Below are positions 57,791-62,969 of a stretch of 64,000 nt of DNA, one piece after another; the stretch's first letter is position 1, and each line of letters begins with the position of its first letter. The stretch comes from Oricola sp. Its GTDB lineage: Bacteria; Pseudomonadota; Alphaproteobacteria; Rhizobiales; Rhizobiaceae. Position numbers and translations under genes: made by a program. Under the pieces are notes generated by a model. The model saw only the letters and a program-made list of their open reading frames with translations. It was not told the DNA's origin and did no database searches. The stretch covers positions 434,001-498,000 of the forward strand of contig NZ_JALEGV010000012.1 of the NCBI RefSeq assembly GCF_022763245.1, written 5' to 3'.

Positions 57791-58840
57791 GTGTTTTTCG
57801 CCTCCGACAACTGGGCCGGCGCCCATCCGAAGATTTCCGCTGCGCTCGCCGAACATGGCGGCGGCTTCAATGCCGCTTACGGCGCCGGCGAGATCGATCG
57901 CGCGGTGGAGCGGCGTTTCGCCGAGATTTTCGAACATGAGGTCTCGGTCTGGTTCCTGCCGACCGGCACGGCCGCCAATTCGCTGGCCGTCGCCTCCGTC
58001 GGCCACGTCGGGGGCGTCGCTTTCGCCCATCCCGACGCCCATATCCGCGAGGACGAAGGCGGCGCCCCGGAATTCCTGACCGCCGGCATGCGCGTGCGTC
58101 CTGTGCCGGGACCGGACGGCAAGATGGACGCCGCCCTCCTGCGCGAAACGATCAAGCCCTTCTCGCCCGGCGCGATCAATCAGGGCCGGGCCTCGGCTGT
58201 GTCGATCACACAGGCCACCGAAGCCGGAACGGTCTATTCCACCAGCGAGATCGCCGGCATCTCGAATGTCTGCCGCGATTTCGACCTGCCGCTGCACATG
58301 GACGGCTCGCGTTTCGCCAATGCGATGGTGACGCTCGATTGCTCTCCGGCCGAGATGACGTGGCGCCAGGGGGTCGACATCCTGTCCTTCGGCGGCACCA
58401 AGAACGGCTGCTGGTGCGCCGAGGCGCTCATCTTTTTCGATCCCGCCATGGCCGCAGAAATGCCCTATCTGCGCAAGCGCTCCGGCCTGCTCTTCTCCAA
58501 GAACCGCTTCATCGCCGCCCAGTTCCTCGCCTATCTCGAAGACGGTTTGTGGCTCGACCTGGCCCGCCACGCCAACGCCATGGCGGCGCAACTGGTCGCC
58601 GCAATCGAAGCGGCCCCAGCCACCCGCATGGCATGGGCCTGCGAGGCAAACGAGGTGTTCGCGATCCTGCCCATGGCGATCTATGAGCGCATCAAGACCG
58701 AAGGCGGACATCTCTATCCATGGCAGGTGCCCGCCGGCAGCGGCCTCGCCGTCGGCGAAGATGAAACCGTCGTGCGGATGGTCACCAGCTTCGCGACCGA
58801 AGCCTCGGAGATCGCCCGCTTCGCGGAACTTCTTGGCTGA
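57791..58840 (+). CDS. ltaE: Low-specificity L-threonine aldolase
   Basis: 349 residues of the PLP fold-type I aldolase family. The PLP lysine is in SFGGTKNGCW (~200); HMDGSRFANAM holds the cofactor-binding Asp and Arg. Splits threonine and related beta-hydroxy amino acids to glycine and an aldehyde. Starts at GTG 57791, seven bases after AAGGAG; upstream in-frame ATGs lack a ribosome site. Confidence 0.88.
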   Translation: MFFASDNWAGAHPKISAALAEHGGGFNAAYGAGEIDRAVERRFAEIFEHEVSVWFLPTGTAANSLAVASVGHVGGVAFAHPDAHIREDEGGAPEFLTAGMRVRPVPGPDGKMDAALLRETIKPFSPGAINQGRASAVSITQATEAGTVYSTSEIAGISNVCRDFDLPLHMDGSRFANAMVTLDCSPAEMTWRQGVDILSFGGTKNGCWCAEALIFFDPAMAAEMPYLRKRSGLLFSKNRFIAAQFLAYLEDGLWLDLARHANAMAAQLVAAIEAAPATRMAWACEANEVFAILPMAIYERIKTEGGHLYPWQVPAGSGLAVGEDETVVRMVTSFATEASEIARFAELLG

Positions 58841-58866
58841 CAAGATAAAAACGGCGCTCAACTTTG

Positions 58867-58884
58867 CCTCACACGGAAGTGAGG
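58867..58884. promoter_or_regulatory. Inverted repeat between the aldolase and bufA1
   Basis: CCTCAC-ACGGAA-GTGAGG, a perfect 6-bp stem in the 145-base gap before the bufferin operon, about 100 bases upstream of bufA1. It could be the aldolase terminator (no T-tract) or a bufferin operator. Confidence 0.35.
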
Positions 58885-58985
58885 GCGGATAACGCCGCGT
58901 TGATTTCCGTTTTACCGGCATGTTTGCGAACTCTTCGGTCACCGGCGGCACAATGCCCCGGGTCAGACCTTCAGAGGAGTTACAC

Positions 58986-59297
58986 ATGTCCAAAGCAACC
59001 AAGACCGCCTTCGGTGGCGCCGTTCTCGCCGGTGCCGTAGCAGCTGCCATTTCCGGCGCACAGCTCGTGACCGCAACCGACGCCGCCGCAGCCAATGTGA
59101 AGTGCTACGGCGTCGCCATGGCCGGCCAGAACGACTGCGCCGCCGGCCCGGGCACCACCTGTCAGGGCACCTCCACCATCGATTTCCAGGGCAACTCCTG
59201 GAAATATGTCGAGGAAGGCACCTGCGCATCCATGGAACTGCCGGATGGCCGCATGGGCTCGCTCGAGCCGCTCGACCGCGACCTGCCGGAGGCCTGA
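58986..59297 (+). CDS. bufA1: BufA1-type bufferin precursor (DUF2282)
   Basis: 103-residue precursor of a ribosomally made, modified metal-binding peptide. The signal peptide ends near the AAAAN segment at residue 36; the mature part has four Cys at 40, 51, 59 and 80 in the family arrangement [13 protein letters not shown]...TTCQGTST...EGTC. Family knowledge: in Caulobacter the MNIO enzyme BufB converts cysteines of BufA to thiooxazoles and the product sequesters copper in the periplasm. The C-terminal tail after the last Cys (about 20 acidic residues with [11 protein letters not shown]) is longer than I expect for the family. GAGGAG seven bases before the ATG is the best ribosome site of the operon. 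Confidence 0.9.
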
Positions 59298-59334
59298 GGC
59301 CCCGCCACCTGACGCCGCAAACCGGAGACACCCC

Positions 59335-60285
59335 ATGAACACGACCCCGTTTCGCGAAGGCCCGTTCGCAGCCCGTCCCCCGGCTGAAGGCAGGTCCCGG
59401 TTTGCGGCGCGAACCTCCCGTATCCCGGCTTCGGCCGGGGTCGGCTTCAAGCACAGCCACCTCGACGCCATTCTCGCCGATCCCGATCCGGTGGGCTTTC
59501 TCGAGGTTCACGCCGAGAACTACATGGGCGACGGCGGCTTTCCCCACCGCGCCCTGGAGCGCGTCCGCCAGGACTATCCGCTCTCGCTGCACGGCGTCTG
59601 CATGTCCATCGGCGGGCCGCAGCCGCTGAGCGAGGATCATCTCGCCCGCTTCAAGGCGGTGGTCGACCGCTACGAACCCGCTCTCATATCCGAACATCTG
59701 GCCTGGTCGACCCATGACGAGGTCTTCATGAACGACCTGCTGCCGCTCCCCTATACGCAGGCGACCCTGGCCCATGTCTGCGATCACATCGATCGCATGC
59801 AGGGTTTCATCGGCCGGCAGATGCTGCTGGAAAATCCCTCGACCTATGTCGTCTTCGAAAACTCGACCTTTTCGGAGACCGATTTCATCCGCGAGATCGT
59901 GCGCCGCACCGGTTGCGGCCTGCTGCTCGACGTCAACAACGTCTTCGTCTCGGCCACCAATCACGGCTTTTCGCCGATGTCCTATCTGATGGACTACCCG
60001 ATGGAGCATGTCGGCGAGATCCACCTTGCCGGCCATGCCGTCCAGGAGGACGACGAGGGTGCGCCGCTGCTCATCGACAGTCACGACGCCCCGGTCGCCG
60101 ACGCCGTCTGGGACCTCTATGCGATCGTCGTCAAACAGGCAGGCCCGATCCCGACGCTGATCGAATGGGACTCCGATCTCCCCGACTGGCCGGTGCTGCG
60201 CGCCGAAGCCGCCGCTGCCGACCGCATTCTCGAAGACGCGGCGCATTCCTTCATGATGGGCAAGAGCCATGCCGTCGGCGCCTGA
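59335..60285 (+). CDS. bufB: BufB, MNIO-family bufferin maturase (DUF692)
   Basis: 316 residues, TIM-barrel multinuclear iron oxygenase family. Metal-ligand-type segments line up along the sequence: [67 protein letters not shown] and [10 protein letters not shown]. It would modify cysteines of BufA1 before export. A ~30-residue N-terminal extension (MNTTPFREG...) precedes the barrel. 37 bases downstream of bufA1, overlapping bufC by 17 bases. Confidence 0.92.
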
Positions 60286-61048
60286 GACACACGACCTCGA
60301 CACGGCCGGTTTCCGCGCCGCGATTCTCGATCCCGCGCGCGAAAAACCAGCCATGGTCGCAGGACCGCGCGGCAAGCAGGCGGTCAAGCGGTTCAACGTC
60401 TACCGCAACAATGTCACCGTGAGCCTGATCAACGCGCTCGCCGACATCTTCCCGGCCGTCCAGCGCATCACCGGCGAGACGCTGTTCCGCGACATGGCGC
60501 GCGCATTCGTGCGTGCTAATCCGCCATCTTCGCCACTCCTGTTTCTCTATGGCGGCGAATTTCCGGCCTTCATCGAGGGCTTCGAACACGCCCGGCGCAT
60601 GCCCTATCTCGCCGACGTCGCCCGCCTGGAGCGCGCCTGGCTGACGGCCTATCACGCCGCCGATCTCCCGGCGCTGCAGGCACAATCGCTCGCCGCGATC
60701 CCACCGGAGGATCTCGCAGACACCGTCTTCGCCCCCCACCCGGCCGCCGGCCTCGTGCGCTCGCGCCACGCGGTCTTCGACATCTTCGACACCAACCGCC
60801 ACCACGAGAAAATCCGCCCGATAGACACCGCACGCGCCCAGGACGCGCTGGTCGCTCGTCCGGGGATCGACGTGACGGTGACCGCCCTTCCCGAGGGCCA
60901 CGGAGCCTTCTTCGAGGCGCTGCTGGCGGGAGAAACACTCGGCGCGGCGGCAGAAGCCGGAGCTAAATGCGCCGACACCTTCGACATCAACGAGGCGATC
61001 GGCGGACTGCTGTCCACCGGCGCTTTTCTTGCCGTGAAAACGGACTGA
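60269..61048 (+). CDS. bufC: BufC, bufferin maturase partner (DUF2063)
   Basis: 259 residues. The N-terminal ~100 residues have the DUF2063 pattern ([31 protein letters not shown]), which binds the DUF692 partner and recruits the precursor. The C-terminal half is a separate domain with HRHHEKIRP-like polar segments and [12 protein letters not shown]. Overlaps the bufB end by 17 bases, so translation is coupled. Confidence 0.9.
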
Positions 61049-61064
61049 CGCGAACGGAAAAGAG

Positions 61065-61682
61065 ATGACAATGACGACGACGCCCCTGTCCGGGATGCGC
61101 GATACGCGCCCCAATGCCCTGCCGGCTCCGATCGGCGCCCTCATCGGCCTTCATGAGAGAGTTTTTTCCGCGCTCGACGGCCTTTTGGCCGGGTGGTTCA
61201 ACGGCTTTGCAGCACGCTTCACCTTCGCAAGCCTGCTGCTGCTCTATTACCTGAATTCGGGTGTGAACAAGCTGGGTGACGGCCTCTTCGGCTTTCTCAG
61301 CCCGTCGGTCGGCGCCTATGCGACGATCCTGCCGCCGGTCTTCGAGAACCATGGCGCCGATATCGCGACGATCCCCTTCTATTGGGACGCGGTTGTGCTG
61401 CTTGGCACCTGGGCGGAACTTCTGCTTCCGATCCTGATCGTGCTCGGCCTCTTCAGCCGCGTCGCCGCCCTCGGCATGATCGGCTTCGTCCTCGTCCAGA
61501 GCTATGTCGACATCGCCTTTCACGGCATTTCAGGCAAATATCTGGGCGCGATGTTCGACCGCTTTCCCGACGCGATCATCTTCGACCAGCGCCTTCTCTG
61601 GATCTTCGTCCTGGTGGTGATCGTCGCCAACGGTCCCGGCAAGCTGTCGCTCGACCACGTTCTCGCGCGCCGGTTCCGCTGA
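61065..61682 (+). CDS. bufD: BufD, DoxX-family membrane protein
   Basis: 205 residues with four membrane helices, including FTFASLLLLYYLNSG (~48), AVVLLGTWAELLLPILIVLG (~108), ALGMIGFVLVQSYVDI (~131) and LWIFVLVVIVA (~174). A DoxX-type partner commonly closes bufferin operons; its role, perhaps redox supply or secretion support, is unproven. Two starts are possible, 61065 and 61071. Fifth-strand context: 16 bases after bufC, then a terminator. Confidence 0.85.
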   Translation: MTMTTTPLSGMRDTRPNALPAPIGALIGLHERVFSALDGLLAGWFNGFAARFTFASLLLLYYLNSGVNKLGDGLFGFLSPSVGAYATILPPVFENHGADIATIPFYWDAVVLLGTWAELLLPILIVLGLFSRVAALGMIGFVLVQSYVDIAFHGISGKYLGAMFDRFPDAIIFDQRLLWIFVLVVIVANGPGKLSLDHVLARRFR

Positions 61683-61713
61683 CGAACCGCGCTTGCGGCC
61701 TCTTATAGACAAG

Positions 61714-61745
61714 AAAAAAGGCGGGATCTCTCCCGCCTTTCCGCG
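61714..61745. terminator. Bidirectional terminator between bufD and hsp20
   Basis: AAAGGCGGGA-TCTC-TCCCGCCTTT with a run of six A on the left and T on the right, shared by the convergent bufferin operon and heat-shock gene. Confidence 0.9.
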
Positions 61746-61818
61746 TCAGTCGCGCCGGCAGGGAGGGGGAACCCGGCGCGCTGACGTATGGGTGTTGGGC
61801 CTGTGAGAGGCCTTGGCC

Positions 61819-62286
61819 TTAGTTGACCGCCTTGGCCTCGATCCGCTTGGAATCCTTGCCGTTTGCGATCTCGATCTTGCGCGGCTTCATCGCTTCGGGG
61901 ATTTCGCGCTCCAGATCGATATGCAGCAGGCCGTTCTTGAGTTCGGCGGCCTTCACTTCCACATAGTCGGCAAGCTGGAAGCGGCGCTCGAAGGCGCGCG
62001 ATGCGATGCCGCGATGCAGGAATTCCCGCTTTTCGTCAGCCTTGTCTTCCGGCTTGGCGCCTGCGACGGTCAGGACGTTGGAACGGGCTTCGATGGTCAG
62101 GTCGTCTTCGGCGAAACCGGCGACGGCCATGGTGATGCGATAGGCGTTCTCACCGGTCCGCTCGATATTGTAGGGCGGATAGGTCTGGCCGTTGCTCTCC
62201 GGCTGGGCAAGCGTGTCCAGCATGGAAAACAGGCGGTCGAAACCGACGGTGGAACGGAACAGGGGCGAATAGTCGACGTGACGCAT
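61819..62286 (-). CDS. Hsp20/IbpA-type small heat-shock protein
   Basis: 155 residues with the alpha-crystallin domain (~35-130): YNIERTGENAYRITMAVAGF, the conserved LTVAGAKPE and GIASRAFERRFQLADYV, then a C-terminal KPRKIEI anchor (IxI type). Holds unfolding proteins during heat stress. The start at 62286 has GGAGG six bases upstream, which is sequestered by the preceding anti-SD segment. Confidence 0.92.
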   Translation of the reverse strand: MRHVDYSPLFRSTVGFDRLFSMLDTLAQPESNGQTYPPYNIERTGENAYRITMAVAGFAEDDLTIEARSNVLTVAGAKPEDKADEKREFLHRGIASRAFERRFQLADYVEVKAAELKNGLLHIDLEREIPEAMKPRKIEIANGKDSKRIEAKAVN

Positions 62287-62567: not shown

Positions 62568-62969
62568 ATGAAATCGCTTTCGACCATCGCCCTCGCCGCG
62601 CTTCTTTCCACCGGAACGATCGTTGGCGCGCACGCCATGCCGGCCATGCAGGCACCGGCCGCTGCGACCGCGACTGCTGCAGATGTCGAACTTGTTGGCC
62701 ATCATCGCTACAGCCATCGCATTTTGCCCAAGCACGTCGTCCAGCGCTCGCTGCAGCGCCGCGGCTATCGCCACATCCGCAACATGCGCCTTGTGCGCGG
62801 CGACTACTTCCTGACCGCGCGCGGCCATCGCGGCGAGGTTCGCCTGAGGGTTGACGGACGCACCGGCCGGATCCTCTCGCGCCAGGCATTGCACCACAGG
62901 CCGCACCGTCCCGGCATCCGGCTTCATGGCGGCAATGGCAACTTCTCCTACTCCTTCGGCATTCACTGA
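62568..62969 (+). CDS. Secreted PepSY-like His/Arg-rich protein
   Basis: 133 residues: signal peptide ~1-23 (cleavage after AHA), then a His-rich segment (GHHRYSHRILPKHVVQ), a PepSY-like beta-helix region (RGYRHIRNMRLVRGDYFLTARGHRG, RLRVDGRTGRIL) and an Arg/His/Gly-rich tail. Small PepSY-like periplasmic proteins occur throughout Hyphomicrobiales. Function unknown; the His content suggests weak metal binding at most. GGAG eight bases before the ATG. Confidence 0.75.
   Translation: MKSLSTIALAALLSTGTIVGAHAMPAMQAPAAATATAADVELVGHHRYSHRILPKHVVQRSLQRRGYRHIRNMRLVRGDYFLTARGHRGEVRLRVDGRTGRILSRQALHHRPHRPGIRLHGGNGNFSYSFGIH

Follow-up and report, generated by a model that had tools for sequence, protein, structure and literature searches.

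The window, the whole 64,000-nucleotide stretch of Oricola sp. DNA analyzed here, carried a complete, ordinary Buf1 bufferin operon of the published kind. As the initial annotation had proposed for bufA1-bufB-bufC-bufD, this assignment was well supported by protein families, gene order, and synteny, and the four open reading frames lay where it had placed them. We read the locus as a vertically inherited Buf1 copper bufferin operon under the control of an upstream region with a dyad and a TTGATTTCC box, not of an ECF16 sigma-F promoter, and give this explanation as a whole a probability of about 0.87. In it, the chemistry, export, and copper function of the precursor BufA are predicted from published relatives, and the mode of control is suggested by comparison among loci. 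Bufferin chemistry is already known, and novelty, if any, may be confined to the control region.

Table 1. Features of the bufferin locus in the window (positions of the whole stretch)
Feature	Position	Strand	Basis
Inverted repeat CCTCAC-ACGGAA-GTGAGG, core TCAC-N6-GTGA at 58869-58882	58867-58884		Pattern search
TTGATTTCC box, 31 nt after TCAC core start	58900-58908	+	Motif search; overlooked by the initial annotation
bufA Shine-Dalgarno AGGAG, 6 nt before ATG	58975-58979	+	By eye
bufA, Buf1-type bufferin precursor, 103 aa	58986-59297	+	ORF call, Pfam, precursor parsing
bufB Shine-Dalgarno-like GGAGA, 6 nt before ATG	59324-59328	+	By eye
bufB, MNIO bufferin maturase, 316 aa	59335-60285	+	Pfam, NCBIfam, PDB alignment
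bufC, DUF2063 (PME-type 1) partner protein, 259 aa	60269-61048	+	ORF call, Pfam
bufD, DoxX-family membrane protein, 205 aa	61065-61682	+	ORF call, Pfam
Terminator-like hairpin between bufD and convergent Hsp20 gene	61715-61742		Scored on - strand

The four genes were intact and arranged head to tail at 58986-61682. BufA, BufB, and BufC matched the Pfam families DUF2282 (E = 1.5e-22), MbnB_TglH_ChrH (E = 3.4e-107), and DUF2063 (E = 4.5e-24), respectively, all above the curated cut-offs, and BufD matched DoxX (E = 3.8e-5) with a narrow pass of 24.7 bits against a cut-off of 23.6. BufB scored 389.1 bits against the NCBIfam equivalog model MNIO_BufB (NF050167; cut-off, 310), and the sole NCBIfam model matched by BufA was BufA2, at 25.5 bits where 60 are needed. 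A PDB sequence search with BufB returned MNIOs only, and the searches with BufA and BufC returned no relative (E up to 0.1). The BufB motifs SEH, LEN, LDxxN, IHxAGH, and DxH aligned, with variations, to the solved MNIOs 3bww, 8hci, and 7dz9, whose metal ligands we take to sit in these motifs. The 5.63-Mb genome contained one MNIO match and one DUF2282 match and no further match of either. The BufB-type MNIO gene was located directly 3′ of the DUF2282 precursor gene and was followed by the DUF2063 gene. In the passages cited here from PMC12452194, the core of a bufferin cluster comprises precursor, MNIO, DUF2063, and DoxX genes with a strict bufABC order, and the majority of BufC proteins have 250–260 residues, a range into which the window BufC falls.

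The 17-nt overlap of bufB and bufC reported earlier was reproduced at 60269-60285. The initial annotation had also assigned a strong ribosome site to bufA1 only; this did not hold, as bufB also has such a site (Table 1), and the excess of precursor over enzyme deduced from it is weakly founded for the same reason. No obvious Shine-Dalgarno sequence was seen by eye before bufC or bufD.

BufB matches adjoined bufA matches in 110 of the 110 loci fetched, and the threonine-aldolase-like gene upstream and the Hsp20 gene downstream were kept as in the window in 31 of 80 loci counted by eye. The nearest relatives were Oricola and an Ahrensia genome, with BufB identities of up to 92% and BufA identities of 90–91%. 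Since the kept synteny and the nearest BufA and BufB sequences in Oricola and Ahrensia fit vertical descent, the operon was probably inherited vertically. Two terminator-like hairpins were found in the region, no more than shuffled sequence gave on average (2.3), and an Rfam scan of 58700-61850 yielded no family at the gathering threshold. A small secreted-looking ORF of 133 aa at 62568-62969 (+) had no significant Pfam family (best E = 0.093) and had matches near the bufferin operon in 5 of 80 loci (L033, L034, L035, L040, and L105). Tandem bufferin precursor genes were observed in relatives (L035, 6001-6777; L048, 5565-6297; L066; L075; and L096), and in Oricola nitratireducens the second of these copies has diverged further; the window genome is single-copy.

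Upstream of bufA, a 6-bp inverted repeat had been proposed as the only candidate site, with no dedicated regulator adjacent. The repeat was exact, and its TCAC-N6-GTGA core begins 117 nt before the bufA ATG, but it was not the only candidate, because a second conserved element, the TTGATTTCC box, was found downstream of it (Table 1). No regulator was seen beside the operon, in agreement with the earlier claim, and the anti-sigma factor NrsF had no match in the whole genome either (assembly 98.76% complete). The pattern CCTCAC-N6-GTGAGG with at most one mismatch, which was picked after the repeat had been seen, was expected 0.13 times in the whole window and was present in 12 of 100 shuffles. 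Dyads of the window type recurred upstream of bufA in relatives: TCAC-N6-GTGA was present in 17 of 100 bufA upstream regions versus 1.45 in stretches taken at random from these loci, and CACG-N4-CGTG in 32 of 100 versus a mean of 1.7, although these regions include the window's own and the counts, coming from related loci, are not independent.

The extended form of the box, TTKATTTCCNNTKKA, had its sole match in the genome at 58900-58914, upstream of bufA. TTKATTTYC, first spotted in an alignment of 14 of the regions concerned, occurred in 25 of 105 bufA upstream regions (related loci, the window's own included) versus 0.14 expected from base shuffles. In all six genomes compared within the genus, the composite of dyad and box had exactly one occurrence, immediately before a DUF2282 match, and its reversed control gave no match in the six genomes. 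In an alignment of 24 de-replicated loci, TKKA after the box was conserved while neighboring positions varied, and so was the dyad in 19 rows picked independently of it; the rows had been selected for the box itself and, in 5 cases, for the dyad, and the conservation is thus partly a product of choice.

This arrangement differs from the two alphaproteobacterial examples whose control was found in print, those of Caulobacter vibrioides and Sinorhizobium meliloti, both of which depend on ECF16 sigma factors acting at GTAAC...CGAA promoters in the passages cited (PMC3511200, PMC6180224, PMC8224329). The bufferin 1 operon of C. vibrioides (CC3254-CC3257, CCNA_03363-03366), which is induced by copper (PMC8224329; PMC12452194), has the same DUF2282-MNIO-DUF2063-DoxX order and is under the control of ECF sigma-F/NrsF, with the promoter GTAACC-N16-CGAA (PMC3511200). 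In S. meliloti, SMb20530-SMb20527 comprise a gene in the precursor position, a DUF692 gene, a DUF2063 gene, and one further gene; RpoE7 raises all four, and the ECF16 promoter is tabulated as AATGTAACAT...GCGAATG (PMC6180224); judging from its position, SMb20530 would be the bufferin precursor gene. The gene layout of the window operon is like that of these operons, whereas their ECF16 promoter is absent: GTAAC-N15-19-CGAA was not found in the 200 nt upstream of bufA, where the dyad and the TTGATTTCC box are present instead. The Caulobacter sigma-F pattern with two mismatches had 43 matches in the window, a chance level (35.5 expected), and none upstream of bufA.

The same division was observed among relatives, which were classed by matches to the anti-sigma factor NrsF alone. 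Among 49 of 80 loci typed for NrsF, with the weak sub-cut-off matches in L052, L063, and L091 counted as negative, the sigma-F (ECF16) motif was present in 13 of 15 NrsF-positive and 0 of 34 NrsF-negative loci, whereas TTKATTT was found in none of the 15 and in 27 of the 34. In the 30 genomes whose locus was parsed (that of the window and 29 relatives, G095 being counted as NrsF-negative), the corresponding numbers were 11/14 and 0/16 for the sigma-F motif and 0/14 and 9/16 for TTKATTT; the two samplings may share species and are not additive. TTKATTT was missing from 7 of the 34 NrsF-negative loci and from 7 of the 16 in the other sample. Sigma-F motif and box occurred together in none of the 105 upstream regions, and a TCAC-N6-GTGA-type dyad was seen in NrsF-bearing relatives as well. 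Rhodobacteraceae-type loci such as L057, L068, L070, and L082 lacked both the sigma-F motif and the box; they showed, by eye, what look like two adjacent CAC...GTG dyads and possibly represent a third control class.

On the BufB tree, from which L088 was excluded (matched fragment with a stop), the box label required at least five changes, indicating that the control classes switched more than once on this tree. A tree-corrected test was restricted to pairs whose branches were supported. NrsF and the sigma-F motif were concordant in an average of 4.5 of 5 such pairs and discordant in none (median p = 0.0625; range, 0.0625–0.25); NrsF and the box were discordant in an average of 2.1 of 5 and concordant in none (median p = 0.5; range, 0.25–1). 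The positive association of NrsF with the sigma-F motif and its negative association with the box were thus consistent in direction after tree correction but not established statistically. We tentatively propose, at slightly less than even odds, that Alphaproteobacteria lacking NrsF have placed bufferin under a different dedicated switch, in which a putative regulator reading the dyad and the TTGATTTCC box replaces the sigma-F promoter, and that several such swaps occurred.

In one alternative, which we consider less likely than not, the box is the -35 element of an ordinary promoter, the dyad serves an activator, and the link between the box and the absence of NrsF reflects shared ancestry. 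The lack of significance for NrsF versus the box after tree correction is in line with this alternative, as is a similar dyad followed by TTGATTT, with a spacing 4–6 nt longer than at bufA, that precedes an ar7-like small RNA elsewhere in the family. On the other hand, the bufA upstream region showed no sigma-70 hexamer pair, the box flank and the dyad were conserved amid variable neighbors in the alignment described above, and the composite in the genus was restricted to bufA.

The ar7-like loci (L153-L156, L164-L166, and L176-L179) had the TCAC-N6-GTGA dyad and then TTGATTT within 42–44 nt in total. Rfam ar7 scored 46–58 bits in three such loci scanned at a lax threshold, below the gathering score of 60, and 0 of 13 loci had ar7 at the gathering threshold. 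An ORF resembling the N terminus of a 5′-3′ exonuclease was seen by eye on the other side in L153-L156 and L176-L178; in L176, the one locus tested for its family, it proved to be a 5′-3′ exonuclease gene. In the genus, ar7 was present in six of six genomes, and the composite was absent, by eye, from five displayed ar7 upstream regions. A shared ar7/bufA regulon was considered and rejected, and the ar7-like arrangement does not name the bufA regulator, because the composite in the window's genus occurs only at bufA.

Under the preferred reading of a Buf1 copper bufferin operon controlled by dyad and box, the products would act as in published relatives. Buf1 precursors have four conserved Cys residues, with modification at the central positions and a disulfide between the outer pair, in the passages cited from PMC12452194, and 5-thiooxazole is supported as the modification across MNIO systems of such kind (PMC13097082). 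For related products, a mass decrease of about 4 Da for each modified Cys and absorbance at 305 nm are reported (PMC13097082). The captophorins (fontiphorin, oxazolin, and gonophorin) share the pair of MNIO and PME1 (DUF2063), which installs 5-thiooxazole in them (PMC13097082), but their precursors form an EGKCG-repeat group, whereas the window precursor belongs to DUF2282. By analogy, BufA would be translated and then held by BufC-BufB, BufB would oxidize the central Cys51 and Cys59 to thiooxazoles, and a disulfide would join Cys40 and Cys80. The modified BufA would be exported by Sec to buffer copper in the periplasm, with BufD as a putative accessory membrane protein, and transcription would be set by the TCAC-N6-GTGA dyad and the TTGATTTCC box, not by the ECF16 sigma-F promoter of Caulobacter and S. 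meliloti. A role other than copper buffering, involving other metals or oxidants, is improbable. In its favor, operons of this kind elsewhere are responsive to chromium and cadmium (PMC3511200) or to gold and silver (PMC8224329), and the window operon is controlled differently; against it, the BufA core and BufB are conserved, and the sequence gave no sign of another metal.

The N terminus of BufA was judged by eye to be signal-peptide-like. Its Cys residues, at positions 40, 51, 59, and 80, are all inside the DUF2282 match, which upholds the earlier placement of four Cys at the family positions; four Cys were present in 105 of 105 parsed precursors, though the parsing pattern demands them. 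This pattern missed 11 of 111 loci (L009, L034, L041, L044, L047, L054, L060, L062, L078, L086, and L105) and 6 of 27 in the sample that supplied the precursors from outside the class. The acidic tail after the last Cys, GS-L-x-x-L-x-RDLP, lies largely past the end of the DUF2282 match (residue 88) and had been taken as a possible mark of a variant. Its generalized form GS[LMPT]-x2-[LM]-x-RD-x-P was found in 86 of 105 parsed precursors, a biased set in that 75 of them came from a search with one of six patterns inside the tail, and in 15 of 29 in the fairer sample of relatives fetched by the Pfam model alone. In the AlphaFold2 model of BufA, which was of moderate quality (mean pLDDT, 68.9; pTM, 0.49), residues 81-100 were predicted about as confidently as the core (block means, 83 and 79), and for this reason the tail more likely belongs to the fold than marks a variant; its role may be structural or in contact with BufBC. 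That the tail gives a different product is therefore very improbable: 14 of the 29 Pfam-only precursors have no such tail or a shorter or different one, as do 6 of 7 parsed from outside the Alphaproteobacteria (present in 1 of 7), but the tail is the commonest form among the relatives near Oricola.

The window operon thus extends a large published bufferin family, and its control architecture is the only possibly new part. Strains like this one allow one to ask which signal controls bufferin production without the ECF16 pathway, and the dyad and box together provide a defined DNA bait for the regulator.
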